A stretch of 64,000 bases of DNA from Leptolyngbya sp. NIES-2104. GTDB lineage: Bacteria; Cyanobacteriota; Cyanobacteriia; Leptolyngbyales; Leptolyngbyaceae. The position numbers and the translations under genes were made by a program. Of this stretch, positions 22,348 through 63,747 are shown in pieces; within the stretch, counting starts at the first letter, position 1, and each line of letters begins with the position of its first letter. The notes under the pieces were generated by a model that had not been told where the DNA came from, searched no databases, and saw only the letters and a list, made by a program, of their open reading frames with translations. The stretch lies in NCBI RefSeq assembly GCF_001485215.1, contig NZ_BBWW01000001.1, positions 2,294,001-2,358,000 on the forward strand, written 5' to 3'.

Positions 22348-22551
22348 AGAGGGTGTTTGAGAAAGTATCGTTCATTGCGTTCACCCGCCCCGGAATGGAA
22401 TTCGGGGCTAACCGAACGAAGTCCACTGAAGGGGACTGCAAGAGACTTAGACAGGTGATTTTAGTTCCCGGAGGGGAACTTCGCACTGTTAGCCCCGAAT
22501 TCCATTCCGGGGCGAGTCATGCGACAAACGATTACTTCTCAAACACCCTCT
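22348..22551. repeat. Nested inverted-repeat element, copy 1 (subfamily A)
   Basis: Outer ends AGAGGGTGTTTGAGAA (22348-22363) and its exact inverse (22536-22551) bracket the element. Inside are two arms, GCCCCGGAATGG...GGGGC and GCCCCGAATTCC...GGGGC, which are complementary to each other and each nearly self-complementary. Between them are two small hairpins, GTCC(A)...GGGGAC near 22421 and GTTCCC...GGGAAC near 22464. It lies between a terminator and the next gene on the same strand. Confidence 0.9.
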
Positions 22552-22583
22552 AAGACGGCTCTTTGAGTAACCGGAGTGAGCGC

Positions 22584-23672
22584 GTGCCTAAGTCTGCCAA
22601 GTATTTATTGATTGGTTCCCTAGAAGCCTACAGTGGCAAGTCTGCTGCGATTTTAGGCATTGCCCACCAACTGAAAGCGCGAGGGCTGGACCTTGCCTAT
22701 GGTAAAGCGCTAGGTGGCGGGTGGGGACAAACCCAGATGGCAGATAGCGATGGCGATATTCAGTTTGTGGCAGAAACAATTCAGTTGAGTGACGATCGAC
22801 TTCAAGCCCCGGTTTTGACGCTGAATTCAGAAACGGTTGAGAATCGATTGAATGGTTCGGATACCCAGGATTATCGGCAAGCGTTGAAAGAGCGATCGCA
22901 AAACCAAAAAGGCGATCTGGTGATTCTTGAAGGTCCTGGAACCCTCAGCGAAGGAAAATTATTCGATTTATCACTGTTGCAAGTTGCCGATACGATTCAA
23001 GCATCGGTCATGCTCGTTGCTCGATTTCATTCGGTGTTGTTGTTGGATGTGATTTTGAGCGCGAAAGAGCAATTAGGCGATCGTTTAATCGGTGTGCTGA
23101 TTAACGATGTGCCAAGGGAGCAAGTTGAAGCGATTAACAATTCCTTCTCCCCATTTTTAGAGAAACAAGGGATTGCGGTGTTTGGAGTGCTGCCGAGCAG
23201 TACTTTACTTAGAAGTGTGAGTGTTGCGGAATTAGTTCATCAGCTTGGTGCAGAAGTGCTGTGTCGGGGCGATCGGCTTGATCATATGGTCGAAAGTTTG
23301 ACGATCGGGGCGATGAACGTGAATTCTGCACTGAAATACTTTCGTGCTCGGCAAAATATGGCAGTAGTGACAGGTGGCGATCGTACTGATTTGCAATTAG
23401 CGGCACTCGAAACTTCAACCCAATGTTTGATTCTGACGGGTCACATTCCACCGACAAAAGACATTATTTCGCGGGCAGAAGATCTAGAAATTCCGATTCT
23501 CTCAGTGGATCTCGATACGCTTACAACGGTTGAAATTATCGAACGGGCATTTGGGGAAGTTCGACTGCAAGAACCGATCAAGTTTCAGTGTATTTGTCAA
23601 ATGATCGAGCAGTATTTTGATAGTGATCGACTGCTTGAGACATTAGGCTTGATGCCTGCTGGAGCGCTTTAG
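22584..23672 (+). CDS. BioD/CobQ-like P-loop and DRTGG domain protein
   Basis: About 362 residues. The N-terminus KYLLIGSLEAYSGKSAAILG carries a deviant P-loop of the BioD/CobB/phosphotransacetylase N-terminal type, with VILEGPGTL as the following strand. The C-terminal half (about residues 210-330) is a DRTGG-like domain. Such proteins resemble the regulatory N-terminal half of long phosphate acetyltransferases but lack the catalytic part; their role is unknown. I prefer GTG 22584 (VPKSAKYLL) because GGAG lies 7 bases upstream. A TTG at 22563 is the alternative. Confidence 0.75.
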   Translation: MPKSAKYLLIGSLEAYSGKSAAILGIAHQLKARGLDLAYGKALGGGWGQTQMADSDGDIQFVAETIQLSDDRLQAPVLTLNSETVENRLNGSDTQDYRQALKERSQNQKGDLVILEGPGTLSEGKLFDLSLLQVADTIQASVMLVARFHSVLLLDVILSAKEQLGDRLIGVLINDVPREQVEAINNSFSPFLEKQGIAVFGVLPSSTLLRSVSVAELVHQLGAEVLCRGDRLDHMVESLTIGAMNVNSALKYFRARQNMAVVTGGDRTDLQLAALETSTQCLILTGHIPPTKDIISRAEDLEIPILSVDLDTLTTVEIIERAFGEVRLQEPIKFQCICQMIEQYFDSDRLLETLGLMPAGAL

Positions 23673-23762
23673 TAGCAGCTTGATGCTGTCATCCTTGTTG
23701 AGGAGTACGATCGCATCGGTTTTCTCAAGTACAATCGAGGCAGAGCAAATGCTGAGAGTACT

Positions 23763-24017
23763 ATGAGTTCTGAATCGCTGGTGATTGAAAAATTAAAGAT
23801 GCTTTCACCCGAACGGCAGCAAGAGGTCTTAGATTTCATTGAGTTTCTGCAACAAAAAGACCAATCACAGGCGGCTGATGATCAAACAGCGCAGTTAGAT
23901 AACTTCAAATCTGACTGGATATCTGATCCATTTTTTGGAATTTGGCGCGATCGTGAAGATTTAGAAGATAGTGCTACTTGGGTCAGACAAATTCGCCAGC
24001 AGCACTGGAACCGCTAG
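23763..24017 (+). CDS. VapB-type antitoxin (DUF2281-like)
   Basis: An 84-residue antitoxin of the DUF2281 type: VIEKLKMLSPERQQEVLDFIEFLQQK is the characteristic N-terminal helix pair. The C-terminal half (WISDPFFGIWRDREDLEDS) is the toxin-binding tail. It ends one base before the ATG of a PIN-domain toxin gene, so the two form a classic type II pair in which the antitoxin blocks the toxin and represses the operon. Confidence 0.88.
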   Translation: MSSESLVIEKLKMLSPERQQEVLDFIEFLQQKDQSQAADDQTAQLDNFKSDWISDPFFGIWRDREDLEDSATWVRQIRQQHWNR

Positions 24018-24018
24018 G

Positions 24019-24408
24019 ATGTCGCAGGTTATTCTAATCGATTCCGATATTTTGATTGATTACAGTCGGGGAATGATTGCAACGGGTGAATATCTCGCAA
24101 CATCGGCTGTAACGACAACGCTTGCGATCAGTGTCGTAACGCAGATGGAAATTATTGTAGGTTGTCGTGATAAACGATCACTTCAAGCAGCAGAAAAGTT
24201 TCTCGCAAGGTTTGAAGTGATTCCAGTCAATGAAGCGGTTTCGCATCAAGCCGTTGAACTGCTTCGCCAATATTATCTGAGTCACAGTTTGCTGATTCCA
24301 GACGCGCTAATTGCAGCAACCGCAATTTCATACAATTACCCACTTGTGACGAAGAACCAGCGCGATTTTCGGTTTATTTCAGGTGTCACATTATTACCGC
24401 CTCCCTAG
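24019..24408 (+). CDS. VapC-type PIN-domain toxin
   Basis: A 129-residue PIN-domain ribonuclease. The acidic metal-binding residues are in place: Asp in LIDSDILIDYSRG, Glu in VTQMEIIVG and Asp in LLIPDALIAATAI, with a late TKNQRDF motif. It would cleave specific RNAs when freed from its antitoxin. I chose ATG 24019 (MSQVILIDSD), one base after the antitoxin stop; the longer frame overlaps the antitoxin. Its last four bases overlap the end of tyrA on the other strand. All active-site residues are intact. Confidence 0.9.
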   Translation: MSQVILIDSDILIDYSRGMIATGEYLATSAVTTTLAISVVTQMEIIVGCRDKRSLQAAEKFLARFEVIPVNEAVSHQAVELLRQYYLSHSLLIPDALIAATAISYNYPLVTKNQRDFRFISGVTLLPPP

Positions 24409-25241
24409 AGAAACGTCGATCGCATTTCCTGAGTCCGTATTAACAGTGCTTCTAAGGCTTTCCAGTCTTCCTGTTCAATCAGTGCAATGATTTGATCGAT
24501 TTCTGCTCGATAGGTGTGGAGCGATCGCAAAACTTCCGATCGATTGTACTGTGCCATCATTAGTCCTAATTCTGGATTGCCGCCACCAACGCGACTTGTA
24601 TCGCGAAATCCAGAACTCGCTAAAGCTTGAGCAAGTTTTAAGACTGTGGAATCTGACTCATTTAAACAAGCAGAAATTAAACTCGCGCTGACCATCACTG
24701 GAAGGTGAGAAATCCAGGCAACGGCTCGATCGTGATCTTCGGGCTGACAGTGAAATAATTTCACCTGCAATGGACGTAATAGCGATTCGATTCGATCAAT
24801 CGCATCTCTAGGCGTTTCCTCAGTCGGAGTCAAAACATAAGGATTTCCCGCAAACAATCCATGTACAGCGGCTTCGATGCCACTTTCTGCGGTGCCTGCC
24901 ATCGGATGACCGCCAACGAAATTTTTCCACATCGGTGAAATATTTTTGACGATCGATGCTTTAACTGAGCCAACATCGGTTAAAACGGTGTCTGAAGCGA
25001 TACACGGAATCAATTGTTCAATCGTAGGAACCAAATGCACGATCGGGGTACAGACAAAAATCGCATCGGTATCCGCCAAGAGCGACAAATCCGTTTCGGC
25101 TGCATCGACTGCACCACGGACAACCGCAATTTCACAGGTTCGGGATTTGCGGCTGACTCCGAGAACGGTGTGACCTTGCGATCGCAAATCCAATCCCAGC
25201 GATCCGCCGATCAATCCCAAGCCCACGATTCCGATTTGCAT
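24405..25241 (-). CDS. tyrA: Prephenate/arogenate dehydrogenase
   Basis: A 278-residue TyrA-type dehydrogenase in tyrosine synthesis. The Rossmann motif GIVGLGLIGGSLGLDL starts the protein, VLTDVGSVKASIV and FVGGHPMAGTAESGIEAA are the substrate-binding signatures, and FRDTSRVGGGNPELG is in the C-terminal helical domain. In cyanobacteria the preferred substrate is usually arogenate with NADP; the sequence alone does not decide. No ACT or chorismate mutase domain is fused. The 3' end overlaps that of the VapC gene. Confidence 0.93.
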   Translation of the reverse strand: MQIGIVGLGLIGGSLGLDLRSQGHTVLGVSRKSRTCEIAVVRGAVDAAETDLSLLADTDAIFVCTPIVHLVPTIEQLIPCIASDTVLTDVGSVKASIVKNISPMWKNFVGGHPMAGTAESGIEAAVHGLFAGNPYVLTPTEETPRDAIDRIESLLRPLQVKLFHCQPEDHDRAVAWISHLPVMVSASLISACLNESDSTVLKLAQALASSGFRDTSRVGGGNPELGLMMAQYNRSEVLRSLHTYRAEIDQIIALIEQEDWKALEALLIRTQEMRSTFL

Positions 25242-25335
25242 CGCCTATTCTCCCAACGTCCTACGAGGTCATTCTGATCTACATCTGGGTACGTTAGCGC
25301 TAAATTCGCCCGAATTTTTTTAGGACAGTGAAGGA

Positions 25336-26826
25336 ATGAACGTTGAGGAACTGCTCGAACACTATGCTGCGGATCTCCGAGAATTTTCGGGGCTGAACCT
25401 CAGCGGGGTCAATCTTCCAGGGGTGAATTTAAGTCGATCGATCTTTGTGCAAGCCAATTTCAACGCGGCAAAACTAACGAGCGCCGATTTTAGTCATTCG
25501 GTTTGTCAAACTGCGAATTTTCACGGCGCGAATTTGACTTTGGCAGATTTTAGCTATACCGATCTTCAGAATGCGGATTTGAGCAAGGCGGAACTCACCC
25601 GGACTGACTTTAGTATGGCGAATTTACAAGGCGCGAATCTAAGTTATGCAGATTTACGCGATGCCAAATTGCGCTGCGTCAATCTCGATCGAGCAAACCT
25701 CAGTCGAGCAGATTTACGCTACGCCAAACTGATTTCTGCAAATTTACAGCGGACAAATTTCACCAGTAGCGATTTGAGCAGTACCGATCTTTCTGGAGCA
25801 GATTTACGCGATGCAGAACTGAGACAGACAACACTCAATCGGGCGAATTTACAGGGCGCGAACTTGCAGGGAGCGAATTTACGCTGGGCGGATTTAAGTG
25901 GGGCAAATTTGCGCTGGGCGGATTTGACCGGAGCGAAACTTAGTGGCGCGAATTTGACCGGAGCAGATTTGTCTCATGCCACGCTGCTAGATGCGACTTT
26001 GGTTCATGTAGATTTAACGCGATCGAATCTTGGGTTTGTCGATTGGCGAGGGGCAGATCTCAGCGGTTCTAATCTCACAGGCGCAAAACTCTACGCAGTT
26101 TCACCATTCGGTGTGAAAACGGCTGGCACCGTTTGCCGCTGGATTGATCTGAGTCAGAACGGCGATCAAAGCCAGATTTATCAGTTTTTCAGTAATGATC
26201 CGAGCGAGTATTTTCATTCAACGCCGCCAACAGTTGAGATTGTGATTGACGATCGCTTAACTCCGGATGCTCATTGTGCGTTAGCGGTCGCGTATCAACA
26301 ATTTGCACGACAAGGAAAAGCGATCGCGCCCCCTCAGATCCAAATTCACAAGCGGCGGACGGTTTTGAGGTTTGAACTCGATCGCAACGAAGATCTTTTT
26401 TGGACAGCCTTTGTAGCAATTCTGCCGTTCACCGATGCAACTTTAACTCAGAAAGCTTTGATTCATCTGCTGCGATCGATTTCAACTGAAACCATCAGTG
26501 ATGTTCCGCATGGAGTTCAGATTCTGCATTCACTTGTGACCAGTCTGAGTCAATCCATTCAGAAATTAGACACGACGAAACTACTGCAAGTGATTCCGAT
26601 CGCGATTCAAAAGATTCGATTTTTCCAGGCTCCGACCCGATCAACTTTACTAAATTCGGCAAATCGAGCGATTGCCCTTTACGACAATCCGCAGTTTGGC
26701 AAACGTCGAATTAAATATGCGGAATCGGAAGAAGAATTTGCCTTTTTGACTCAACCCACACTGTTTGTGCCGCCGACGCAGAAAGAAGTGATCGAATTTC
26801 TTCAGGGATTTAGCGATCGTTCATAA
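25336..26826 (+). CDS. Pentapeptide-repeat protein with novel C-terminal domain
   Basis: A 496-residue protein. Residues about 15-260 are nearly continuous A(D/N)Lxx pentapeptides forming a right-handed quadrilateral beta-helix. The C-terminal 230 residues (from VKTAGTVCRWIDL) are different: they include VEIVIDDRLTPDAHCALAVAYQQFARQG and then mainly alpha-helical sequence ending FLQGFSDRS. I do not recognise that domain. Cytoplasmic by sequence. The function of such proteins in cyanobacteria is generally unknown. It is divergent from tyrA and not in an operon. Confidence 0.85.
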   Translation: MNVEELLEHYAADLREFSGLNLSGVNLPGVNLSRSIFVQANFNAAKLTSADFSHSVCQTANFHGANLTLADFSYTDLQNADLSKAELTRTDFSMANLQGANLSYADLRDAKLRCVNLDRANLSRADLRYAKLISANLQRTNFTSSDLSSTDLSGADLRDAELRQTTLNRANLQGANLQGANLRWADLSGANLRWADLTGAKLSGANLTGADLSHATLLDATLVHVDLTRSNLGFVDWRGADLSGSNLTGAKLYAVSPFGVKTAGTVCRWIDLSQNGDQSQIYQFFSNDPSEYFHSTPPTVEIVIDDRLTPDAHCALAVAYQQFARQGKAIAPPQIQIHKRRTVLRFELDRNEDLFWTAFVAILPFTDATLTQKALIHLLRSISTETISDVPHGVQILHSLVTSLSQSIQKLDTTKLLQVIPIAIQKIRFFQAPTRSTLLNSANRAIALYDNPQFGKRRIKYAESEEEFAFLTQPTLFVPPTQKEVIEFLQGFSDRS

Positions 26827-26901
26827 TTTCTGCTAATTTCCGGCTCGACTTGGTAAATTGGACAATAGTACAACCTCCATTCGATCGAGCGGGAATTGTT
26901 T

Positions 26902-29028
26902 ATGCTGAAAAAGAATCAATCAGTTTTTGCTTTTCTCTTGGGCGGCTTTCTCGTCTGCTCCGTGCCTACAAGCTCGATCACGGTTGCTCAGGCACAGCAA
27001 ACTCCGCAGCAAGAACTAACGCAACTGAAACAGCAGCAGCAATTAAGGTCGCAAGTCGAAGACGAGATCGATCGCGCTTTATCCCGTTCAAGTTTGTTAC
27101 TAAACATTGCGCTGATCACTCTAACGGTCTTCCCGATCGCGATCATGGTCGCGTTATGGAAATTCCGCCGGATTATCATTCGCGAAATTGTCGATCGTGG
27201 ACTTGCACAGCTTCAGCACCTTTCAGAAGTCGAACATCAGTTACAAGATGTCCAGCGAGAAGCTGAAGGCAGAATTCAACAATCTCGTGAGGTGATTGAT
27301 CAACTTGAACGAGAAGTTCAAGCCTTACAGCAGAGAATTTCAGAAGATGCGGAAAGTTTAACCGGATTGACTTCGCAGTTGTCGCGATCGCAATCTGAAC
27401 TCCTCGCCGGACTCGAAACGCAGGTGAATCTCTCGAAGCGTGAACTAGAAAAGCTTTCCTCAGATTTTGTGGCGCATCTCTCAATGCTACAAACCGATGC
27501 AAATGAGCAGACGAGCATTGCCGTTGATCGCTTTAACGAAGTTCGCGATCAGTTAGTTGCACAACTAGACGAAATCGAAGCCTTCGCGACGACTCAGCAA
27601 CACTTAACACAGGAACATCTAAGCCGCTCACAGACGGCATTTACAACACACCTGGACGAGCTTCAATCGGATGTTCAGCAGCAACGCGATCAAACGCTGC
27701 AACGATTGGCGCAATTCGAGCAGGATTACATCACGCAGCTTTCAGACGCGCAGACCGACACAGAAGATCGGCGCAATCAACTATTAGAAGATTTGCGCCA
27801 TCTCAAGAGCGAATTTGCTTCACAGCTTGCTGAATTTCACACCGATAGCCAACACCAACGCGATCGCATTCGTGAACAAATCGAACAATTAGAATCTGAG
27901 CTTTCTGGAACGGCAACCGAAGTACGATCGAGCTTAGAACAGCGCCAAAAACAGCTTCAAGACGATCTGACTCAGAAAGAAACGGAAGTGCGATCGCAGC
28001 TTGATCTCCATCAGAAACGAGTTCAGGAAGATCTTGATCAGAAAGAAACGGAAGTGCGATCGCAGCTTGATCTCCATCAAAAACAGCTTCAAAACGATCT
28101 GACTCAAAGACAATCCGAAGTGTTATCACAGTTCTCTGAGTTGGAAACGACTGCAATTCAAGGCAGAACGAACTTCCTCGACAAGCTACGATTGCTTGAT
28201 TCGGATGCAGTACAACAAAAACAAGCTATTTTTAACAAACTTCAACAGTTAGAGATTGAATTTGTTTCTCAACTTTCAGGACTGCGGGAACAAGCACAAA
28301 ATCGCCGTCCTGCACCTGTTGAAACTCCTGTTATCGAACAATCCTCTGATTTTGAGCAGGCTGAAGCATTGTTTAAATCCGGTCAATTTGAAGACGCGAT
28401 CGCGCATTACGATCGTGCCTTAAAAAACCAATCGAACAATCCTGAACTGTGGCTGAGACGCGGATTAGCGCTCGGACGATTGAAACAATTCAAAGAAGCG
28501 ATCGCCTCTTACGATCGAGCGATTCAACTTGAGCCGGATTATTCAGAAGCTTGGTGCGATCGCGGGGTTGCCCTCGGTAAATTACAACGCCACGAAGAAG
28601 CCTTCCGCTCCTTCAATCAAGCAGTGCAGATTCGCCCCAAAGACTCGATCGCCTGGCTCAATCGAGGACTTGCCCTTCAGATGTTAGGTCGATACTCCGA
28701 AGCGCTTGCCTCATTCGATGAAGCCCTGAAACTCGATTCTGAAGCATACAAAGTGTGGAACTATCGCGGCTACCTCTTAGTACAGCTAGAACGCGATCGC
28801 GATGCACTCGAAAGTTTCGATTTCGCGATCGACATTCAGCCGAAATACGCCCCTGCTTACTACAACAAAGCGATTTGTTATGCACTTCAGGGACATACCC
28901 AAGCTGCCATTGAGAACCTCGAAGAAGCGATTCGATTGAATCCCCGCTATCGAGACGATGCCAAAAACGACCCGGAATTCGAGCAAATCATGAACGATCG
29001 ACGCTTCCGCCAACTGATTGAACACTAA
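26902..29028 (+). CDS. Coiled-coil and TPR membrane protein
   Basis: About 708 residues. A signal-like N-terminus (MLKKNQSVFAFLLGGFLVC) ends near AQA, then a hydrophobic segment ALITLTVFPIAIMVALW-like near residue 80 gives a membrane anchor. Residues about 100-480 are a long, polar coiled coil rich in E, Q, R and L, containing a 22-residue tandem repeat. The last 220 residues are about six TPR units (WLRRGLALGRLKQFKEAIAS and relatives). It probably forms a large scaffold on the membrane. I chose ATG 26902; a TTG at 26896 is possible. Confidence 0.8.
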   Translation: MLKKNQSVFAFLLGGFLVCSVPTSSITVAQAQQTPQQELTQLKQQQQLRSQVEDEIDRALSRSSLLLNIALITLTVFPIAIMVALWKFRRIIIREIVDRGLAQLQHLSEVEHQLQDVQREAEGRIQQSREVIDQLEREVQALQQRISEDAESLTGLTSQLSRSQSELLAGLETQVNLSKRELEKLSSDFVAHLSMLQTDANEQTSIAVDRFNEVRDQLVAQLDEIEAFATTQQHLTQEHLSRSQTAFTTHLDELQSDVQQQRDQTLQRLAQFEQDYITQLSDAQTDTEDRRNQLLEDLRHLKSEFASQLAEFHTDSQHQRDRIREQIEQLESELSGTATEVRSSLEQRQKQLQDDLTQKETEVRSQLDLHQKRVQEDLDQKETEVRSQLDLHQKQLQNDLTQRQSEVLSQFSELETTAIQGRTNFLDKLRLLDSDAVQQKQAIFNKLQQLEIEFVSQLSGLREQAQNRRPAPVETPVIEQSSDFEQAEALFKSGQFEDAIAHYDRALKNQSNNPELWLRRGLALGRLKQFKEAIASYDRAIQLEPDYSEAWCDRGVALGKLQRHEEAFRSFNQAVQIRPKDSIAWLNRGLALQMLGRYSEALASFDEALKLDSEAYKVWNYRGYLLVQLERDRDALESFDFAIDIQPKYAPAYYNKAICYALQGHTQAAIENLEEAIRLNPRYRDDAKNDPEFEQIMNDRRFRQLIEH
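27964..28161 (+). repeat. 66-bp tandem repeat inside the coiled-coil gene
   Basis: Two nearly identical 66-bp units start at 27964 and 28030, and a third, more diverged, unit starts at 28096. Each encodes 22 residues (DLTQKETEVRSQLDLHQK...). The unit length of 22 is two 11-residue coiled-coil periods. High DNA identity suggests recent internal duplication. Confidence 0.9.
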
Positions 29029-31265: not shown

Positions 31266-32747
31266 ATGAGCTTACTCAATCTTGTTTCCCTGGCTGGAAT
31301 CTTCGGCTTATGCGCGATCGCGTGGCTTTTTTCTGAACATCGTCACGCTAAATTTTTCCCCTGGCGTGTGGTTGCCTCTGGAATCTTGCTGCAACTCGTG
31401 CTGGGTGCATTGGTATTTGTGGTGCCTGGAACTCGTGAAGCTCTCCAGGTTTTCAGTAATTTACTCGATGGCGTTTTTCTAGCAGCCGACGCGGGCGCAC
31501 GATTTGTTTTCGGTCGAAACGTTGTGCCTGTCCCTGGACAAACTTCAGATGTGAATTTGGGCTATATCTTCGCCTTCCGCGCTCTGCCAACCGTAATCTT
31601 TTTCTCTGGACTGATGGCGCTCTTGCAAAACTTGGGTGTGATTCAGGTCGTGACAAATCTGTTCGCTAAGACGTTTTACTGGACGATGCGGTTGAGTGGA
31701 GCCGAAGCACTTAGTGGAGCAGCAAATATTTTCGTCGGGATCGAAGCTGCGATCGTGGTCAAGCCCTATTTACCCAAAATGACCCGAAGCGAACTCTGTG
31801 CAATTTTATCGTGCTGCTTTGGAACGGCTGCATCATCAACATTAGCGATCTATGTTAGTTTTCTACGTCCTGTGTTCCCAAACATTCTAGGACACTTAGT
31901 TTCAGCCTCGATCATTGCGATTCCTGCTTGCTTTGTTCTGTCTAAAATTCTGGTGCCGGAAACTGAGCGACCGTTGACCATCGGTGGCATTCCCAGAGAA
32001 GAAAAGAAATGGTTAGCGGAAGATGGCGAAATGCTCGAAGAAGTGCTGCAAGTGGAAGAAGAGCGGGTGAGTCCACTAGATGCGGCGATTATGGGAGCAC
32101 TTGACGGGGTGAAAATGGCAGTGTCGATCGCGGCTGTTCTCATTCTGATTCTCGGTTTAGTTTCGCTGGTCAATCAAATCTTTGAGGGACTCGCAATAAT
32201 CCCCGGTGGAATTGGAGCGTTTTTCAAGGTCGTGACCTTGGCAAATATTGCAGGTGTCCTCTTTCTGCCGTTTACCTTTCTCACAGGTGTTTCGCTCGAA
32301 TGGAATGAACTGTGGGAGTCTTCTGTGATCATTGGACGGCGATTGTTAGAAACTGCGATTCCGCCGTATCAAGCTTTGGCGGCAGCGGCATCAAGACCCG
32401 AAAATCCGATCAGCGATCGAGCGGTTCTCATCATTAGTTATGCCCTCTCAGGATTTGCTCATTTGGCTTCGGTGGGCATTTTTGTGGGAGGTACGATCGC
32501 GCTCATTCCCTCTCGCCGCAAAGACATTTCTGAGTTAGGGTGGAAAGCTTTGTTTGTTGGCACGTTAGCCACGATGATGATCGCTTGTGTTGCAGGAGTG
32601 TTTGATACAGGCAATCCCGGAATTTTGGGAGAGAAAGCGGCTCCAACGGTAATCAGTCCGAGTCCAAAGCCGAGTATTGTGCCTGTTCCTTCGACACCGC
32701 CTTCACCGAAAGCTGTGAAATCGCCAAAACCGAGTTCAAAACCTTGA
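31266..32747 (+). CDS. Concentrative nucleoside transporter (NupC/CNT)
   Basis: A 493-residue CNT-family nucleoside/cation symporter with about 10 membrane segments. GAANIFVGIEAAIVVKPYL and TAASSTLAIYVSF are the substrate-binding re-entrant loop signatures, and the second half has FLTGVSLEWNELWES. It imports nucleosides. The C-terminal 40 residues, beyond the family end, are rich in Pro, Ser and Lys. The TGA stop lies inside the left edge of a repeat element (TTGAAAAG), so the tail may have been changed when the element arrived. Confidence 0.9.
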   Translation: MSLLNLVSLAGIFGLCAIAWLFSEHRHAKFFPWRVVASGILLQLVLGALVFVVPGTREALQVFSNLLDGVFLAADAGARFVFGRNVVPVPGQTSDVNLGYIFAFRALPTVIFFSGLMALLQNLGVIQVVTNLFAKTFYWTMRLSGAEALSGAANIFVGIEAAIVVKPYLPKMTRSELCAILSCCFGTAASSTLAIYVSFLRPVFPNILGHLVSASIIAIPACFVLSKILVPETERPLTIGGIPREEKKWLAEDGEMLEEVLQVEEERVSPLDAAIMGALDGVKMAVSIAAVLILILGLVSLVNQIFEGLAIIPGGIGAFFKVVTLANIAGVLFLPFTFLTGVSLEWNELWESSVIIGRRLLETAIPPYQALAAAASRPENPISDRAVLIISYALSGFAHLASVGIFVGGTIALIPSRRKDISELGWKALFVGTLATMMIACVAGVFDTGNPGILGEKAAPTVISPSPKPSIVPVPSTPPSPKAVKSPKPSSKP

Positions 32748-32937
32748 AAAGTCTCTTCGCTTCGATTGCCTCCCGCCCTGAAATGAATTTCGGGCTAATG
32801 GTGGAAAGTCTACTGAAAGTAGACTCGGAGCAAATATCAGTCTCTTAGTCCATTTCAATGGACTTTCGCCGATTAGCCCGAAATTCATTTCAGGGCGAGT
32901 CGTCGCACCGAACGAAGACTCTTCAAACATCCTCTTA
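32744..32937. repeat. Nested inverted-repeat element, copy 2 (subfamily B)
   Basis: Arms GCCCTGAAAT...GGGC (near 32775) and GCCCGAAATT...GGGC (near 32876) are complementary to one another and each can also fold alone. Inside, AGTCTACTGAAAGTAGACT and AGTCCATTTCAATGGACT form two further hairpins. The outer flanks TTGAAAAGTCTCTTCG and its near-inverse on the right extend the stem. It fills the gap between convergent genes and supplies the stop codon of the nucleoside transporter. Confidence 0.9.
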
Positions 32938-42969: not shown

Positions 42970-42984
42970 CGATATTTGAGTACT

Positions 42985-43174
42985 CTTCGTTGTTGCTACA
43001 TCCCGCCCTGAAATGAATTTCGGGCTAACCGACGCAAGTCCATTGAAAATGGACTAAGAAGCTTGAAGCTTCCTCTGAGTCTACTTCAGTAGACTTTCGC
43101 CGATTAGCCCGAAATTCTATTTCAGGGCGGGAGTGCAACGCAGCGGAATGACTGTTTACCAGAACACCCTCTTA
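42985..43174. repeat. Nested inverted-repeat element, copy 3 (subfamily B)
   Basis: Arms GCCCTGAAAT...GGGC (near 43014) and GCCCGAAATTC...GGGC (near 43107) are complementary to each other and nearly self-complementary. The two inner hairpins are GTCCATTGAAAATGGAC and AGTCTACTTCAGTAGACT. A third small palindrome, AAGCTTGAAGCTT, lies between them. The right end AACACCCTCTTA matches copy 1. It lies between convergent genes. Confidence 0.88.
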
Positions 43175-48239: not shown

Positions 48240-48441
48240 TAGGGCATGTTTTAGAACCTTTTCACTCCGTTGCTCACCCGCCCCGGAATAGAATTCGGGG
48301 CTAACCAAACGAAGTCCACTAAAGGGGACTAACAGCCAATTTGAGTCTCTTTAGTCCTTTTCAAAGGACTTCGCACCGATAGCCCCGAATTCCATTCCGG
48401 GGCGGAAATGAACGAAGCGTGAGTTTTAAAACACACCCTAA
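48240..48441. repeat. Nested inverted-repeat element, copy 4 (subfamily A)
   Basis: Arms GCCCCGGAATAG...GGGGC (near 48291) and GCCCCGAATTCC...GGGGC (near 48382) pair with each other. The inner hairpins are GTCCACTAAAGGGGAC and AGTCCTTTTCAAAGGACT. Outer ends CTAGGGCATGTTTTAGAAC and the inverse of TTAGGGTGTGTTTTAAAAC close the stem. The TAG stop codon of the pentapeptide gene (minus strand) is formed by the right end of this element. Confidence 0.9.
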
Positions 48442-56594: not shown

Positions 56595-57323
56595 TTACGC
56601 TAAAGTCGCTGCAATCCAAAATAAGCTGTCAACTAGAATCGTGCTCAGGACTGCGCCGCCAAATGCGACCCAATGCGGGACTTTCAGCTTCAACGAAAAT
56701 ACACCGACGCTCAGCAAGACTGCGGCTAGTGATATTACCCAGAAGATCCCATTGGGGGTGTACATCTGCATAAGAGCCTGTTGGAAAATCGGCTGTACTG
56801 CGTCGGGTTCCACCTGCATTAATTTCCGCCAGTGTGGAAGCAAATCCGTTAGATAGAAGTAAAGATCCGTGAGCGCAGTTCCAAAGAGCGACCCCAAGTA
56901 GAAAAAGTTTCCCAGCTTGCACCAGTTTTGTCTTAAGCCCCAAATCGCGATCGGGAGTCCAATCGCTTCGATCGGTAAGTGTAAAGTTGGCTCCCAGCGA
57001 AACCATCCCCAGTAGAGCGATCCGGCTAACCATGTCCAAGTAAAGCCCGTGAGCAGTTCGCCCCAGTGTCGTGTTTGAGGTTTTGCAGAAAGCGCGATCG
57101 ATGCCCAGACCCAAACAGAAGTCAGCAACAATGCGAGAAGGGGAAATGATCGAACTAAAGGCGCTTCAAAGAAGACAGGTACTGAAACTAAGAAAACGGA
57201 TGCACCAAAAATGAGAAGAGAGCGAGACGATGCGGGACGCTCAGCAAATGAAGATTCTGAAACGGCAATCACTTCAGCCTCTGGGGAGTAACTTGTGGTG
57301 GAACTGGGGGGATATGAAATCAA
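56595..57323 (-). CDS. DUF3120 family membrane protein
   Basis: A 242-residue membrane protein of the cyanobacterial DUF3120 family with about six hydrophobic helices. Markers are WAGSLYWGWFRWEPTLHLPIEA-like sequence near residue 95, FYLGSLFGTALTDLYFYL, and the C-terminal LVDSLFWIAATLA. The N-terminal 35 residues are polar. The role is unknown. It precedes the FHA-cyclase gene on the same strand at about 170 bp. Confidence 0.85.
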   Translation of the reverse strand: MISYPPSSTTSYSPEAEVIAVSESSFAERPASSRSLLIFGASVFLVSVPVFFEAPLVRSFPLLALLLTSVWVWASIALSAKPQTRHWGELLTGFTWTWLAGSLYWGWFRWEPTLHLPIEAIGLPIAIWGLRQNWCKLGNFFYLGSLFGTALTDLYFYLTDLLPHWRKLMQVEPDAVQPIFQQALMQMYTPNGIFWVISLAAVLLSVGVFSLKLKVPHWVAFGGAVLSTILVDSLFWIAATLA

Positions 57324-57564
57324 GGGATTCTTAAACCGGCTTAATTTTATTAACTTAACTTAACATTACCATAGGAAATTTTCAGAGAATCGATCGAGAA
57401 TCTTGAATTGTTCCAGCTGGCAAATACCCCCTGGGGGCATATTCCTAATCCTACCGGAAATTTCCTGATGTCACTCAAGAATTTCGGAAGTGGAAACCAG
57501 AAGCTCTAGAAAGGCTGTACACTCAACAGCCAGAGTTTCGCTCTATAGGTTGAGGAAGCACACG

Positions 57565-58419
57565 ATGCCAGTTTTTCTCGTTGCGGGTCAGGTCAATCAG
57601 CTTTTTGCTTTATTTCAAGGCATTGTGCTTGGTCTAGTTCAAGGAATCACCGAATTTTTGCCGATCAGTAGTACCGCCCATTTGATTATTTTCACAGATG
57701 TATTCGGCTGGCAAACTCAATGGAACAAAGCCGCGATCGATGCGATTCAATTCGGCAGTGTGGTCGCCGTGGTGATGTATTTCTGGAAAGATATTCGATC
57801 GATTCTATCTGGAGCACTAGCGGCATTTGCGCGGAAGGAATGGGATCGTGAGGAATGGAAGATTCTCGTTGGAATTGCGATCGGTACGATTCCCGCGTTA
57901 GGAATGGGCTTTGTGCTGAAGAAATTAAATCTGCTGCCAGAAAGCGTGACGATTATTGCCACGATGTCGATCGTGATGTCGCTTCTGTTGGCACTATCAG
58001 AAAAAATCGGAACTCGGAAACGCGGATTTGATGAACTGGAGATCAAAGATGGGATTTTGGTCGGTTTAGGGCAAATGATTGCATTGTTGCCAGGGGCATC
58101 GCGATCGGGTTCGACGTTGACAGCCGCATTGTTTCTAGGATTGCGACGGGAGACAGCCGCACGATTTTCTTTTTTGTTAGGAATTCCAACATTAGCGATC
58201 GCAACTCTGGTTCAGGCTGGCGATGTATTGAAAGAGGCGGATATGGGACTGCCTTTATTTGTGGGAGTTGTATCGGCGTTTGTGTTTTCGTATTTGTCGA
58301 TCGCTTGGCTCTTAAAATTCTTACAGCGTCAGAGTACTTGGGTATTTGTTTGGTATCGGTTGGCGTTGGGTGTGACGTTGTTAATCGCGATCGCCACAAA
58401 TGTTCTGAAGGCTGTTTAG
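57565..58419 (+). CDS. uppP: Undecaprenyl-diphosphate phosphatase UppP (BacA)
   Basis: UppP of 284 residues. It recycles undecaprenyl diphosphate to the monophosphate carrier for peptidoglycan and polysaccharide synthesis. The catalytic motifs are LVQGITEFLPISSTAHL (E-rich motif) and LPGASRSGSTLTAALFLG. It has about eight helices. I chose ATG 57565 (MPVFLVAGQVNQLF) because GGTTGAGGA precedes it; the open frame reaches 57490. A radical-SAM-like gene starts 27 bp downstream. Confidence 0.95.
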   Translation: MPVFLVAGQVNQLFALFQGIVLGLVQGITEFLPISSTAHLIIFTDVFGWQTQWNKAAIDAIQFGSVVAVVMYFWKDIRSILSGALAAFARKEWDREEWKILVGIAIGTIPALGMGFVLKKLNLLPESVTIIATMSIVMSLLLALSEKIGTRKRGFDELEIKDGILVGLGQMIALLPGASRSGSTLTAALFLGLRRETAARFSFLLGIPTLAIATLVQAGDVLKEADMGLPLFVGVVSAFVFSYLSIAWLLKFLQRQSTWVFVWYRLALGVTLLIAIATNVLKAV

Positions 58420-58446
58420 ACTAGATAAGCTGTCAAGTTTCGGGTC

Positions 58447-59775
58447 ATGAGCGAACTTTCTATTCGTCCGGCATTAGTTACGAGTGTTTTGTCAGGGTCG
58501 ATCGCAGAAGAAATTGGGTTTGAAATGGGCGATCGCATTGTGTCGATCAACGGTGAAAAACCTCGCGATTTAATCGACTATCAGTTTTTGTGCGCGGACG
58601 AAGTGCTAGAACTCGAAGTGATTGACAAGAAAGGGAAGACGCATCACATCGAAATCGAGAAAGATTACGATGAGGACTTAGGTTTAGAGTTTGAAACGGC
58701 TCTGTTTGATGGCTTGATTCAATGTACGAATCGCTGTCCGTTTTGCTTTATTGACCAACAGCCACCCGGAAAGCGGGATAGTCTTTACCTCAAAGATGAT
58801 GACTACCGGTTGAGCTTTCTTTACGGCAGCTATCTGACGTTAACGAACTTGACTCAGCGCGAGTGGAATCGGATTGAACAAATGCGGCTTTCTCCGCTCT
58901 ATGTTTCGGTTCATGCAACGGAATCGGATGTGCGATTGAGATTGTTAAAGAATCCTCGTGCAGGACAGATTTTGGATCAGTTGAAATGGTTCCAAGAGCG
59001 ACAGTTACAGATTCATGCTCAGGTTGTTCTTTGTCCTGGAATTAATGACGGGGAGTATTTAACCCGAACGATCGAGGATCTCGCTCAATTTCATCAAGGT
59101 GATATTCCTGCGGTGGCATCGATCGCGGTTGTTCCCGTCGGGTTAACTCGATTTCGCCCCACTGAAGATGAACTGATTCCTGTGTCACCGGAGAAAGCGC
59201 GAGAAGTAATCGTCCAAGTTCAAGCCCTTCAGAATCAATTTCGCAAAGAACGTGGATCAACGATCGTTTGGTTAGCCGATGAGTGGTTCTTAATTGCTGG
59301 GGAAGATTTACCGCCTGAATCGCACTATGGTGACTATCCGCAGATTGGAAATGGAGTCGGTTCGATTCGATTGTTTCTAAAGGAATTTAGTAAAGCTGCG
59401 AAACGGTTGCCGAAGAAGGTGACACCGAACCGTGACTATGTTTGGATTTTAGGAAATGCGGTTGAAAAAGCGTTTTCGCCATTGCTCGATCGATTTAACC
59501 AGGTCGAAGGCTTAACCGTCCGAATGGTCGCACTCAACAGTGATTATTGGGGGCAAAGTATTACAGTCACGGGATTACTCACCGGACAAGATATTTGCAA
59601 AGCGCTACAAGGAAAAGATTTAGGTGATGGTGTTCTGTTGCCATCTGTGATGCTCAAACAAGGTGAACTGGTGTTTCTCGACGATATGCGGGTCGAAGAT
59701 TTAGAGCAGAAATTGAACACCTCGATCTTTGTAATGGAGGGTGTGGACGGTTTGATCAGGAAATTTAATGAATAA
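58447..59775 (+). CDS. Radical SAM/PDZ-like protein (TIGR03279 type)
   Basis: A 442-residue protein of the cyanobacterial TIGR03279/DUF512 family. The N-terminus is a PDZ-like domain (GSIAEEIGFEMGDRIVSINGE). The radical SAM-type cluster motif is CTNRCPFC in QCTNRCPFCFIDQQPPGKRDSLYLKDD-like sequence, and the C-terminal third is DUF512. It is thought to be an Fe-S oxidoreductase; the substrate is unknown. It is followed by a small gene after 63 bp and preceded by uppP at 27 bp. Confidence 0.92.
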   Translation: MSELSIRPALVTSVLSGSIAEEIGFEMGDRIVSINGEKPRDLIDYQFLCADEVLELEVIDKKGKTHHIEIEKDYDEDLGLEFETALFDGLIQCTNRCPFCFIDQQPPGKRDSLYLKDDDYRLSFLYGSYLTLTNLTQREWNRIEQMRLSPLYVSVHATESDVRLRLLKNPRAGQILDQLKWFQERQLQIHAQVVLCPGINDGEYLTRTIEDLAQFHQGDIPAVASIAVVPVGLTRFRPTEDELIPVSPEKAREVIVQVQALQNQFRKERGSTIVWLADEWFLIAGEDLPPESHYGDYPQIGNGVGSIRLFLKEFSKAAKRLPKKVTPNRDYVWILGNAVEKAFSPLLDRFNQVEGLTVRMVALNSDYWGQSITVTGLLTGQDICKALQGKDLGDGVLLPSVMLKQGELVFLDDMRVEDLEQKLNTSIFVMEGVDGLIRKFNE

Positions 59776-59838
59776 CGTAAACAAGTTTAAAGAAGTGTGG
59801 CGCAAAGCAGGAGTTTGCTGGAATAATCAACCTATCGG

Positions 59839-60120
59839 ATGATTCGACATCGTTCGATTGCCATCAATAGAAATTTGTCGATCGCTCTAGGAGAGAACAT
59901 TTTGGATTCGCGCACTTCACAAACGCTCTTACAATCCTCGCAAACGACTTCAGCACCTCAAGAAGATTTCAGCGAGTATGTTGCTCACCTTCAACTGCAC
60001 ATGGCACTCCAGGCACGGAATTTAGTTCCTAGCATGACGAAAACGCCTGATAGCCGCGAACAGTTACTGCACCAGACGCAGGCGCATTTTGAGAAGTTTG
60101 CTTCTCGGACATTTTTGTAA
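59839..60120 (+). CDS. Hypothetical small protein
   Basis: A 93-residue protein with no recognised family. The N-terminus is basic (MIRHRSIAINRNLSIAL), and the middle includes EDFSEYVAHLQLHMALQARNLVPS. No membrane segment or metal motif. A strong terminator follows, so it may close the uppP-TIGR03279 transcript. Confidence 0.5.
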   Translation: MIRHRSIAINRNLSIALGENILDSRTSQTLLQSSQTTSAPQEDFSEYVAHLQLHMALQARNLVPSMTKTPDSREQLLHQTQAHFEKFASRTFL

Positions 60121-60146
60121 GTTTCCATTGATAAACGCTTCACGTC

Positions 60147-60173
60147 AATCAGGGTTTCGTGCCCTGATTTTTT
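60147..60173 (+). terminator. Rho-independent terminator
   Basis: A perfect 8-bp stem AATCAGGG/CCCTGATT with a 7-base loop, followed by TTTT. It ends the transcript of the small gene just before repeat copy 5, whose left end touches it. Confidence 0.92.
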
Positions 60174-60390
60174 ATTGGGAGGGCGTTTGAAAAGTTGTCG
60201 TTCGTTGCCACATCCCGCCCTGAAATGGAATTTCGGGCTAATCGGCGAAAGTCCTTTGAAAAGGACTGAGAACCTGAAACAGTCTCCCAGTCTACTTCAG
60301 TAGACTTTCCACCATTAGCCCGAAATTCATTTCAGGGCGAGATGCAATCGAAGCGAAGGAACTTTTTATATTTTTCAAACACTCTCTAAT
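60174..60390. repeat. Nested inverted-repeat element, copy 5 (subfamily B)
   Basis: Outer ends ATTGGGAGGGCGTTTGAAAA and the inverse of ATTAGAGAGTGTTTGAAAAA close the element. Arms GCCCTGAAATGG...GGGC (near 60218) and GCCCGAAATTC...GGGC (near 60318) pair. Inner hairpins are GTCCTTTGAAAAGGAC and AGTCTACTTCAGTAGACT. It lies between a terminator and cheR on the same strand. Confidence 0.9.
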
Positions 60391-60472
60391 CGATCGATCG
60401 AATGACGCGAAGGGAGGATTCCAGTATTAGAGGAATAATGCGATAACCAAAGGAGTCGATCGCGCTTCTATC

Positions 60473-61303
60473 ATGCTGGCTCTGGAACCCACACTTGAAA
60501 CCATCGAAACTCAATTATTGTTCGAGGGCATCTATCGCTATTACGGGTATGACTTTCGTAACTATGCCCCGTCCTCGCGCAGTCGTCGAGTTCAAAACTT
60601 TGTGCAGTCCGAAGGAATTGCAACCATTTCAGAACTGCAAAATCGAGTGTTACACGATCGAGACTGCCTCGATCGCTTTCTCCTGAGCCTAACGGTGAAC
60701 GTCACGACAATGTTTCGCGATCCGAGCTTTTACCTCACCTTCAGAAATCTAGTCGTTCCAATTCTGAGAACCTATCCATTTATTCGGATTTGGCACGCGG
60801 GATGTTCGACCGGAGAAGAAGTGTATTCGATGGCGATTTTACTGCAAGAAGAAGGAATTTATCATCGCTGCCGACTCTATGCAACCGATACGAATGAGAA
60901 GGTTTTGCAATCAGCAAGGAGCGGAATATTTTCACTTTCGTCAATGCAGGAATATACGCAGCAATATCTCAAAGCAGGCGGAAAAAAATCCTTTTCCGAA
61001 TACTATACGGCTGCTTATGAGAATGCAATTTTTCGATCGTCGCTGCGAGATAATATTCTATTTTCACAACATAATTTAGTGACCGACGGATCGTTTAATG
61101 AATTTAATGTGATCATTTGTCGGAACGTTTTAATTTACTTCGATCGTACACTTCAAGATCGCGTTCATGATTTGTTTTATCAAAGCCTTTGCCCTTTTGG
61201 AATTTTGGCACTGGGACGGCAAGAAACACTGAGATTTACCTCGAAACACGATCGCTATGAAGACCTTTCAAAATCCGAGAAACTCTATCGGAGGTTGAAT
61301 TAG
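60473..61303 (+). CDS. cheR: CheR-type protein methyltransferase
   Basis: A 276-residue CheR-like S-adenosylmethionine-dependent methyltransferase. FRIWHAGCSTGEEVYSMAILL-like sequence (HAGCSTGEEVYSM) binds SAM, and FNVIICRNVLIYFDRTLQ is the catalytic-domain signature. It would methylate receptor glutamates. Its stop TAG shares one base with the GTG start of the CheB-like gene. The surrounding genes show no receptor, cheA or cheW, so its target is not local. Confidence 0.93.
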   Translation: MLALEPTLETIETQLLFEGIYRYYGYDFRNYAPSSRSRRVQNFVQSEGIATISELQNRVLHDRDCLDRFLLSLTVNVTTMFRDPSFYLTFRNLVVPILRTYPFIRIWHAGCSTGEEVYSMAILLQEEGIYHRCRLYATDTNEKVLQSARSGIFSLSSMQEYTQQYLKAGGKKSFSEYYTAAYENAIFRSSLRDNILFSQHNLVTDGSFNEFNVIICRNVLIYFDRTLQDRVHDLFYQSLCPFGILALGRQETLRFTSKHDRYEDLSKSEKLYRRLN

Positions 61304-61869
61304 TGGCGTTTGCCCTTGTCGTTGTGGGTACATCCCTAGGGGGATTGTCCGCCTTGCGAATTATGTTACAAGCATTACCAGGAGACTTTAAACCCGCGAT
61401 CGCCATTGTCCAGCATCGTGACCGGAGTTCTGGAAAGAGTCTTAGCCAAACCTTACAACAGGAGAGCCGCTTGCCGATTCTGGATGTCGAGGATAAAGAA
61501 CCGATCTGCCCTGGATGCGTGTATTTAGCTCCGGCTGACTACCATCTTTTGGTCGAGCCGGGTCAATTTTCGCTTTCGGTTGATCCGCCGGTTTCTTTTG
61601 CTAAACCCTCGATCGATGTTTTATTTGAATCTGCTGCCGAGGTGTATCAATCGAGCACGATCGGAGTCGTTTTAACCGGAGCAAATCACGATGGAGCCGA
61701 AGGACTGGCGAAGATCAAAGCAAGAGGGGGGTACACGATTGTGCAAGATCCCCAAACAGCGGAATGTGCCTCGATGCCCGAAGCTGCGATCGCTCGAAGT
61801 GTAGTCGATCGTGTTTTGCCACTACAACGAATTTCACCCCTGCTGATTAAGTTATGTTCTCCGTGTTAG
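61303..61869 (+). CDS. CheB-type methylesterase, no receiver domain
   Basis: A 188-residue CheB C-terminal domain only. The catalytic triad lies in GTSLGGLSAL (serine), IVQHRDRSSG (histidine) and LTGANHDGAEGL (aspartate). The usual N-terminal receiver is missing; a hybrid kinase with its own receiver follows at 33 bp. It would remove methyl groups from glutamates. The start is a GTG that overlaps the cheR stop. Confidence 0.9.
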   Translation: MAFALVVVGTSLGGLSALRIMLQALPGDFKPAIAIVQHRDRSSGKSLSQTLQQESRLPILDVEDKEPICPGCVYLAPADYHLLVEPGQFSLSVDPPVSFAKPSIDVLFESAAEVYQSSTIGVVLTGANHDGAEGLAKIKARGGYTIVQDPQTAECASMPEAAIARSVVDRVLPLQRISPLLIKLCSPC

Positions 61870-61902
61870 CTCAGTCTTTTTAGCGTTTTAGGATCGCGCC
61901 TC

Positions 61903-63540
61903 ATGTCCTTGATTAATCCCGTTAACATCCTGCTCGTCGATGACCAACCCGAAAACCTGCTGGCGTTAGAAGCGGTTTTAGGTAAGCTGGGCGAGAATCT
62001 CGTACAGGCATCATCGGGAGAAGAAGCATTACGGTGTCTGTTGAATCGAGATTTTGCAGTCATTCTGCTCGACGTTCAGATGCCGGGAATCGATGGGTTT
62101 GAAACCGCGAGTTTGATCCGGAGTCGAGCGCGATCGCAACATACGCCAATTATTTTTCTCACCGCGTTTGATGCCAGCGATCAAGGAATTTTTCGAGGCT
62201 ACTCGCTCGGTGCAGTGGATTATTTAATCAAGCCGATTAATTCCGATATTCTGGTTTCTAAAGTGTCGGTGTTCGTGGATCTGTTCAAAAAGACCGCAGC
62301 AGTGAAACATCAGGCAGCACAGTTAACTGCAATTAATGCCGAACTGCGCCAGAGCGAAGAACGATTTCGATCGCTGTCTGCTTCGTCTCCGGTCGGCATT
62401 TTCGTGATTGATCCCGACGGACGCTGCACTTATACGAATCCGAGATTTCAAACGATTTGTGGAGTTGTTCCCGATCGCATTTCCGATCGCAGTTGGCATC
62501 GGTGTGTGCATCCAGACGATCGCGATCAGGCAATGTCGCAATGGAATGCGTACCTCGAACACGGGGGCGAACTTTCTGAAGAATTACGATTTTTGACCAA
62601 AGACGATCAGGTGCGCTGGGTGCATATTCGCTCTTGTCCGATGTTGTCACAAACCGGGGAACCGCAGGGTCATGTTGGCACGATCGAAGACATTACCGAG
62701 CGCAAAGAAGCCGAAGTAACTCGCGCTCAAGTGATGCGGGAACAGTTGGCGCGACAAGAGGCTGAAGCGACGAACCGCATGAAAGATGAATTTCTCGCGG
62801 TGCTGTCTCATGAACTGAGAACGCCGTTAAATTCGATGCTGGGTTGGGTGCGACTGTTGCGGACAAAGCAGTATGAGAAAAAAATGGTCGATCGCGCTTT
62901 AGAAACGATCGAGCGAAACGCGGAAACTCAATCGCAACTAATCGAAGATATTCTGGATGTCTCGAAGATCATTCGCGGTAAATTGCGGCTGAACTATCGA
63001 TCGCTGCAACCTGTCGCGATTATTCAAGCTGCGATCGATGCAGTTCGTCCCCAAGTCGAGGCAAAATCGATTCGACTAACGACCGATTTTGATCCCGATG
63101 TCAGCCACGTTTGGGGCGATTCGACTCGACTTCAGCAGATTGTTTGGAACTTGCTGACGAATGCGGTGAAATTCACGCCGGAGTCTGGAGAAGTCACGAT
63201 TGGGCTACAGGCGGAAGATGACAAAACGGTGAAAATCTCGGTGAAAGATACGGGGATCGGGATCGAGCCGGAATTTTTACCGTATGTGTTCGATCGATTC
63301 CGTCAAGCGGATAGTACGACGACACGATCACATAACGGGTTAGGTTTGGGTTTAGCGATCGTGCGGCATTTGGTCGAACTGCATGGGGGATCGATCGAGG
63401 CAAGCAGTCCGGGTATGGGTGAAGGGGCAACGTTTACCGTGAGATTTCCAGTGTTGCAGGCGAATGAATTGCGGGATAAATTACGCGGCGGAACGCCGAT
63501 CGCCGCCGATGGAATTCGCAAGGAACAAAAAATTTGGTAG
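61903..63540 (+). CDS. Receiver-PAS-histidine kinase hybrid
   Basis: A 545-residue protein. It begins with a receiver (NILLVDDQPENLLALEAVL, Asp in VILLDVQMPG), then a PAS domain (FRSLSASSPVGIFVIDPDGR, PAC to about residue 265), HisKA (DEFLAVLSHELRTPLNSMLGW) and HATPase (VWNLLTNAVKFTP, DTGIGIEPEFLPY, GLGLGLAIVRHL). It is soluble. It follows the CheB-like gene at 33 bp, so cheR, cheB and this kinase form one operon. The N-terminal receiver may replace the one missing from the CheB-like protein. Confidence 0.93.
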   Translation: MSLINPVNILLVDDQPENLLALEAVLGKLGENLVQASSGEEALRCLLNRDFAVILLDVQMPGIDGFETASLIRSRARSQHTPIIFLTAFDASDQGIFRGYSLGAVDYLIKPINSDILVSKVSVFVDLFKKTAAVKHQAAQLTAINAELRQSEERFRSLSASSPVGIFVIDPDGRCTYTNPRFQTICGVVPDRISDRSWHRCVHPDDRDQAMSQWNAYLEHGGELSEELRFLTKDDQVRWVHIRSCPMLSQTGEPQGHVGTIEDITERKEAEVTRAQVMREQLARQEAEATNRMKDEFLAVLSHELRTPLNSMLGWVRLLRTKQYEKKMVDRALETIERNAETQSQLIEDILDVSKIIRGKLRLNYRSLQPVAIIQAAIDAVRPQVEAKSIRLTTDFDPDVSHVWGDSTRLQQIVWNLLTNAVKFTPESGEVTIGLQAEDDKTVKISVKDTGIGIEPEFLPYVFDRFRQADSTTTRSHNGLGLGLAIVRHLVELHGGSIEASSPGMGEGATFTVRFPVLQANELRDKLRGGTPIAADGIRKEQKIW

Positions 63541-63564
63541 AGATGTGTCACTGACACGTCAGGG

Positions 63565-63747
63565 CGATAAGTCTTTCCGCTTCGATTCTGTCTCGCCCCG
63601 GAATAGAATTCGGGGCTAATCGTGCGAAGCCCATTAAAGGGGGCTAACGATGATGAAGTCAAGGCTTGCAGTCCTGAAGGGACTTCGCACTGTTAGCCCC
63701 GAATTTCATTCCGGGGCGAGACAGAATCGAAGCGAGAATACTCGTCG
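63565..63747. repeat. Nested inverted-repeat element, copy 6 (subfamily A)
   Basis: An outer perfect 24-bp stem (63578-63601 with 63712-63735) includes CGCTTCGATTCTGTCTCG, and imperfect pairing continues outward. Arms GCCCCGGAATAG...GGGGC and GCCCCGAATTTC...GGGGC pair with each other. Inner hairpins are GCCCATTAAAGGGGGC and GTCCTGAAGGGAC. It lies between convergent genes and ends 8 bp before the stop of the pentapeptide gene. Confidence 0.9.

Follow-up and report, generated by a model that had tools for sequence, protein, structure and literature searches.

Probable mini-transposons of Leptolyngbya sp. NIES-2104 with an IS5-type shell and a REPIN-like core

Six elements of about 200 bp lie in a stretch of 64,000 nucleotides of the cyanobacterium Leptolyngbya sp. 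NIES-2104 (contig NZ_BBWW01000001.1, positions 2,294,001 to 2,358,000; hereafter the window, with positions counted from its first letter). They are most probably non-autonomous mini-transposons made of an IS5-type shell and a core that resembles REPINs, the inverted pairs of repetitive extragenic palindromic (REP) hairpins. According to this explanation, the terminal inverted repeats (TIRs) of the shell would be acted on by an IS5-family DDE transposase, whose cutting and insertion leave a 3-bp, mostly TNA, target duplication. The core would be a REPIN-like module which arose as a single-stranded DNA (ssDNA) target of a TnpA transposase of the Y1 type and was later housed in several kinds of shell. 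In the form with T1 ends (see below) it would now be copied as a passenger by the IS5-type transposase, present-day passenger copying being proposed because the resident Y1 gene is broken.

Layout and number of the elements

The preliminary description of this DNA had reported six nested elements of about 200 bp and divided them into a subfamily A, at 22.3, 48.2 and 63.6 kb, and a subfamily B, at 32.7, 43.0 and 60.2 kb. All six were found in those places and in those subfamilies, and the proposal of one nested design with two alternative folds was upheld. The core consists of two inverted arm hairpins, each with a one-base bulge, and two small hairpins, with TTAG at the foot of the right arm in most copies of the genome. 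The features, for which no strand is assigned, are the following:

22349..22550, e22, with a core of subfamily A and a shell of T1 (IS5) type, TIR GAGGGTGTTTGAGAA at 22349-22363 and 22536-22550
22346..22348 (left) and 22551-22553 (right), e22 target duplication TAA, read from the sequence
22386..22411, e22 left arm, a bulged hairpin with a CTAA foot
22420..22437, e22 small hairpin 1
22463..22480, e22 small hairpin 2
22489..22514, e22 right arm, a TTAG foot and a bulged hairpin
32743..32934, e32, subfamily B core; right TIR at 32920-32934 clear, left TIR decayed
32774..32897, e32 core, arm to arm
42971..43171, e42, subfamily B core, with decay at both ends
43004..43129, e42 core, arm to arm
48240..48440, e48, with a core of subfamily A between T2 ends (TAGGGCATGTTTTA / TAAAACACACCCTA)
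48279..48404, e48 core, arm to arm
60179 to about 60387, e60, of subfamily B and with a shell of type T1
60216..60339, e60 core, arm to arm
63556..63758, e63, with a core of subfamily A and a partly decayed shell that by eye is T3-like (ACGTCAG..CGAYAAGTC type)
63594..63718, e63 core, arm to arm

The strong copies of e60 listed for the own genome match about positions 1733-1943 of the query, which correspond to 60179-60389 of the window. In e32, e42 and e63 the outer stem shows partial decay.

Copies were searched for with R1, a covariance model trained on 12 own-genome copies of the core. In the window, R1 produced exactly six matches (116-137 bits), the same six that are among its 12 training copies, and no seventh element was found with it in the 64 kb. 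Over a contiguous sample of 464 kb that includes the window it detected 20 elements, six in the window and 14 in the following 400 kb, a count which omits a further match at L106:13728 (44 bp, 22.7 bits). The high density claimed for the window was thereby borne out also in relation to the 400 kb that follow it, and the number of elements is far above chance. Many copies, as had been foreseen, were present: 64 distinct cores of the own genome were aligned (35 of type A and 29 of type B), and elements were present in related genomes as well. Since 17 of the 20 sample elements fell outside long stop-free stretches, which make up 83% of the 464-kb sample, the elements are mostly intergenic.

Shell ends and traces of movement

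Three end types, T1, T2 and T3, surround one type of core. In most of the subfamily B copies examined and in e22 the end is T1, GAGG(G/A)TGTTTGA(A/G)AAG; when aligned from the outside, many subfamily B copies show TNA followed directly by GAGG(G/A)TGTTTGAAAAGT. The second type, T2 (TAGGGYGTGTTTTAAA), is borne by e48 and the third by e63. A transposase with matching ends, as envisaged in the preliminary description, was identified for T1: the own genome carries seven copies of a 915-bp insertion sequence (IS), assigned to the IS5 family by its match to NF033580 (6e-62), whose TIR, GAGGGTGTTTGAAAAG, is the same as T1 and whose TNA flanks are identical in 7/7 copies. A TNA duplication is a mark of the IS1031 subgroup.

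GTTTGA was observed at both ends in 19 of the 30 copies examined (29 of subfamily B and e22). The 3-bp flanks were identical in 10 of these 19, compared to a shuffled mean of 5.3, and 54 of 10000 shuffles were as high; 31 of the 38 flanks were TNA in a count that left the flank free. Among the 29 B copies, 23 had T1 at both ends, three at one end and three at none, a share that is biased upwards because 17 of these copies had been retrieved through their match to full-length e60. The 35 A copies were divided into T2/T2 (7), T3/T3 (2), T1/T1 (1), a recognisable end on one side only (13) and none (12). B cores with a T2 end were also found (L243 and L259). No parent IS was recognised at 25 T2 end sites, where open reading frames (ORFs) were not scanned. 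Judging from these sequences, T1-ended elements would be miniature inverted-repeat transposable elements (MITEs) of the IS5 type, movable in trans by the IS5-family transposase, and by analogy T2 and T3 shells may be cut and inserted by a DDE transposase as well.

Compensatory selection on the outer stem was considered and is not supported in subfamily B, where left-right similarity within a copy was no higher than between copies (p = 0.66). In subfamily A it was somewhat higher within copies (p = 0.027), an excess to be expected when three end types are present. The outer stem is the terminal inverted repeat of the transposon.

Empty sites, looked for because the preliminary description had foreseen orthologous places without the element, were found at the positions of e60 and e63 in the congener G004 and at that of e60 in G001. 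They were called from match coordinates and by-eye reading of the sequences, and the duplication is unreadable there because the flanks have diverged. Moreover, four T1 minis of 82-83 bp without nearly all of the core were detected. Three of them (L284, L285 and L287) have one common internal deletion and occupy three places, each between equal flanks (CTA, TTA and TAA, respectively); the fourth, L286, has unequal flanks and does not share this deletion. The core-less minis with identical flanks at three places imply that T1 ends appear to be enough for movement.

At the e63 site, G001 (L113) and G003 (L111) bear inserts with a different core, of the CCCCC..GGGGG type. The one in G001 lies between shell-like arms, CTTCCGCTTCGATTG and GAAACGAAGCGAA, and G003 bears one of this kind at the site of e60 too. 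These inserts may represent either a core swap or an insertion hot spot; by the one pattern tried, this alternate core was not found in the 464-kb sample. A flip of the core relative to its shell was considered and set aside; the CTA/TAG hairpin is on one side in most of the oriented B copies.

The core and its putative Y1 transposase partner

The only Y1_Tnp match of the own genome contains an internal TGA and lacks its start, and a small hairpin and an arm of the core follow directly after it. Intact tnpA genes in G002 and in G011 (Phormidesmis priestleyi BC1401, of the same family as the own genome) sit between the left and right halves of the core layout, and at L009, L040 and L042 the TAG stop codon of tnpA lies inside a small hairpin. 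Relatives of this tnpA were collected by scanning one genome per species in 84,980 species, which yielded 114 relatives; 80 loci were retained. The distance statistic covers the 43 cyanobacterial loci of these 80 (L191, with an early stop, was retained; non-cyanobacterial loci and L205, a partial match, were left out). It takes the listed R1 matches to an E-value of about 1e-3, with 48 lower-scoring of 348 rows outside; R1 E-values are rough. Some loci are duplicates by contig and place (L042 = L150, L044 = L156, L045 = L168).

Among the matches listed, R1 had one no more than 300 bp from tnpA at 41 of the 43 loci, on both sides at 24, and its density fell from 3.57/kb at 0-200 bp from tnpA to 0.03/kb at 2.5-3 kb. 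At the two loci without such a match, L160 and L174, REP-like hairpins could be made out near tnpA by eye, but both were still counted as misses. As a control, 34 loci of Y1 genes of relatives were analysed, and R1 matched only at L038 and L039, both of this tnpA type. With 0/32 of the other Y1 loci matched against 41/43 tnpA loci, Fisher's p was 4e-19, the control loci being from different genomes, some of which lack the element altogether. A TAT[TG]AG foot with a hairpin was present near tnpA at 29/43 loci.

These results bear on the possibility that the elements are plain IS5-family MITEs, the core being palindromic filler whose likeness to the sequence beside the Y1 tnpA is incidental. The TIRs, the 3-bp flanks and the core-less minis are in its favour in that the core is dispensable for movement. 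Nevertheless, the locus association largely contradicts it, and the occurrence of one core type with three end types as well as the two-sided changes in the small hairpins (see below) also speak against a filler core, so that we consider this very unlikely.

The association was also examined in 58 genomes, own included, in which a strong tnpA match was set at 98 bits or more, at the gap to the next score of 60.5. Thirteen genomes had such a match (two broken and one, in G005, partial), and 11 of them contained R1 elements in a scan with stricter filters (p = 0.01 compared to those without). R1 was clear beside tnpA at 8 of 12 loci from this set, some of them also in the 43-locus set. A tnpA of this type is found in one or two copies per genome in the 58 searched.

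The six proteins of the tnpA group all carry WQ, Y---QK-HH and HxH, the latter as DHxH in four and NHxH in two. All six matched the IS200 model (first member 71.8 bits, cut-off 55), while REP_Tyr_transpos was matched by 4/6 (best 1.7e-06). The first member reached 28 bits versus a cut-off of 80 in this last model, hence the cognate tnpA is not a REP-associated tyrosine transposase (RAYT). The nearest solved relatives of the protein include the IS608 transposase. In Table 1 of Quentin et al. (2018; PMC6006769), TnpA-Y1 subclass 1.2 is described with DH[IV]H, WQ and Y---Q--HH and about 148 aa. Its hosts there are Cyanobacteria/Bacteroidetes and it is given as REP 'no', generally without end structures of the IS200 type. 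The core-associated tnpA fits this subclass. The REP search published there required a GT[AG]G foot, which may explain that a partner with the TTAG or TAT[TG]AG foot seen here was missed.

Several side observations concern tnpA loci. At L044, L052 and L156 the left arm hairpin of the element after the gene supplies the final codons of tnpA (..GNQFPGS), and this downstream element recurs close by. R1 matches stand in array-like rows beside tnpA at L163, L173, L178 and L183. Three Chloroflexota loci with a related tnpA (L194, L195 and L200) have R1 matches as well, GC-rich and some of them arrayed. G028 (e.g., L025), a genome of 5.5 Mb of the same family, has 42 Y1_Tnp matches, most of them equal in score.

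The whole core structure pairs in 97.5% of the cells, and neither this value nor its covariation score was reached in any of 500 shuffles; slid controls paired at most 55%. Of the alignment cells of the two small hairpins, 93.5% and 96.8% are paired within their own hairpin, and eight pairs show two-sided change. The one cross pair between them that varies much, 39-93, fails in 37 of the 64 cores, indicating that the small hairpins keep their own pairing; the remaining cross pairs hardly vary and are uninformative. In the arms, almost the sole variation is one difference between A and B, which as one event does not separate local from long-range pairing. Of the matched stem changes proposed in the preliminary description, those in both small hairpins were thus confirmed, those in the outer stem failed in subfamily B, and the arms offered little beyond the A/B difference.

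For the matched changes in the small hairpins two origins come into consideration, selection in ancestors whose Y1 protein was active and fold-back copying. The latter, copying at palindromes by template switching in place of selection, would be compatible with the mini-transposon explanation and is a tentative possibility to which we give somewhat less than an even chance. In three T2 elements (L240, L251 and L262, near position 1500) the flanking sequence of one arm is mirrored across the arm, as judged by eye, and loops are seen in either orientation, e.g., TTTGAAAA and TTTTCAAA. On the other hand, this hairpin layout recurs next to tnpA across cyanobacteria, an outcome that mutation alone need not produce. 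Selection may be a source of the maintained fold, as had been suggested along with the mobility mechanism, but it is not the sole source of matched changes, the mirrored copies being such as fold-back copying would produce.

Covariation, strong folds and mostly intergenic positions would also fit a transcribed RNA under host selection (a terminator, a stabiliser of messenger RNA or a small RNA). This candidate is disfavoured by insertion polymorphism, that is, by the empty sites in congeners. Furthermore, the elements are near-palindromes scored by R1 on both strands, and Rfam at gathering scores placed no family on those of the window, where it found only a tRNA and an overlapping plastid 3' untranslated region model, both off the elements. 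We regard a host RNA as unlikely.

A REPIN moved purely by a Y1 TnpA, with the outer ends being target or drift, would account for the inverted REP-like pair flanking tnpA and for the rows of R1 matches at L163, L173, L178 and L183. Several T2 elements (L242/L253, L252, L254, L256 and L263) retain a single arm by eye, which resembles the single-REP collapse described for REPINs (PMC3116915). The 3-bp duplications, the identity of the TIR to that of the resident IS5 element, the core-less minis at three places and the broken own Y1 gene count against it, and as an explanation of the six elements it is highly improbable. Duplications and minis bear on T1 copies; T2 and T3 copies are still candidates for such movement. 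Similarly, the idea that the core is the unit moved today in the own genome is weakened by the broken tnpA and the core-less minis, and current action of Y1 on the core is unlikely there. Recognition of the arm hairpins in ssDNA by Y1 TnpA would follow from position and anatomy only.

The following points weigh against an IS5-type shell with a REPIN-like core that was paired with tnpA. Regarding the shell, flanks are unequal in 9/19 T1 copies, e60 included, although the 3-bp duplication is still supported by the shuffle test and by the IS5-family IS itself, and a recognisable TIR is absent in 12/35 A copies. Regarding the core, the measure of further pair types was no higher than in shuffles (325/500). 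R1 elements also occur in 18/45 genomes without a strong tnpA match. Within the 12 loci of the 58-genome set, L043 and L054 are without an R1 match beside tnpA, L049 has a weaker one (5e-6) and L050 reaches only E 0.006; G020, the source of L043 with a more divergent tnpA, has at least 58 R1 match rows elsewhere. In G022, G028 and G033, near copies of the element beside tnpA are few elsewhere in the genome. T1-T3 ends were not seen on the tnpA-bearing copies L040, L041, L042 and L009, so core and shell were not seen joined in an autonomous element. Finally, the fit to subclass 1.2 is one of motifs and length only.

It is an even chance that the subclass 1.2 proteins serve as transposases for a REPIN-like system, hitherto undescribed, whose foot is of the T(T/G)AG type and which is spread over Cyanobacteria and perhaps Chloroflexota. 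Its hairpin pair would have been adopted here by several DDE-type mini-transposons, the element being served, now or formerly, by an ssDNA HUH and a double-stranded DNA DDE enzyme. A DNA partner would then be on offer for a transposase subclass published without one, making its activity directly testable. REP-like modules would hitch-hike in mini-transposons of another transposase family, and REP-type palindromes could in this way spread once their own transposase is lost.

Elsewhere in the window, HIP1 (GCGATCGC) occurs 66 times, and its abundance is a marker of cyanobacteria. An ORF of 1134 aa at 18074-21478 (minus strand) has internal DNA repeats spaced about 690 bp; we take it to resemble a phycobilisome linker with repeated domains.

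Comparison with known systems

The preliminary description knew of no described family with this layout. This holds for the combination; it does not hold for the parts, since the T1 ends are those of the IS5 family and the core layout belongs with the Y1 tnpA. No previous description of an IS5-type shell with a REPIN-like core was found in the open-licence PMC literature, with preprints not included and Nezha, other named cyanobacterial MITEs and SDR repeats not compared by sequence.

Like bacterial IS5-family MITEs, the elements are short, without evident coding, mostly intergenic and present in many copies with deletion derivatives, and they have T1 ends in common with a resident IS5-family IS as well as a 3-bp, mostly TNA, duplication. 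They differ from them in three kinds of ends and in a structured core that is elsewhere paired with an unrelated Y1 transposase. With the REPIN / REP-RAYT system (Bertels and Rainey, 2011; PMC3116915) they share the inverted pair of bulged hairpins, the extragenic position, a Y1 gene flanked by it, compensatory spacer changes, single-REP collapse and tandem clusters. Nevertheless, the foot is TTAG or TAT(T/G)AG here and GT(A/G)G in REPINs, the protein is IS200-like and far under the RAYT cut-off, there are additional small hairpins, and dispersal takes place in an IS5-type shell.

Regarding the transposase, WQ with Y---Q--HH, the HUH motif, a length of about 136-154 aa, low copy number and presence in Cyanobacteria agree with TnpA-Y1 subclass 1.2 in PMC6006769. 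Unlike the subclass as published there (REP 'no'), its members here have a partner palindrome, and two of six carry NHxH instead of DHxH. An HUH Y1 transposase with adjoining hairpins is also what characterises IS200/IS605, from which the present system is distinguished by paired inverted double hairpins at the sides and by a tnpA of one or two copies per genome.

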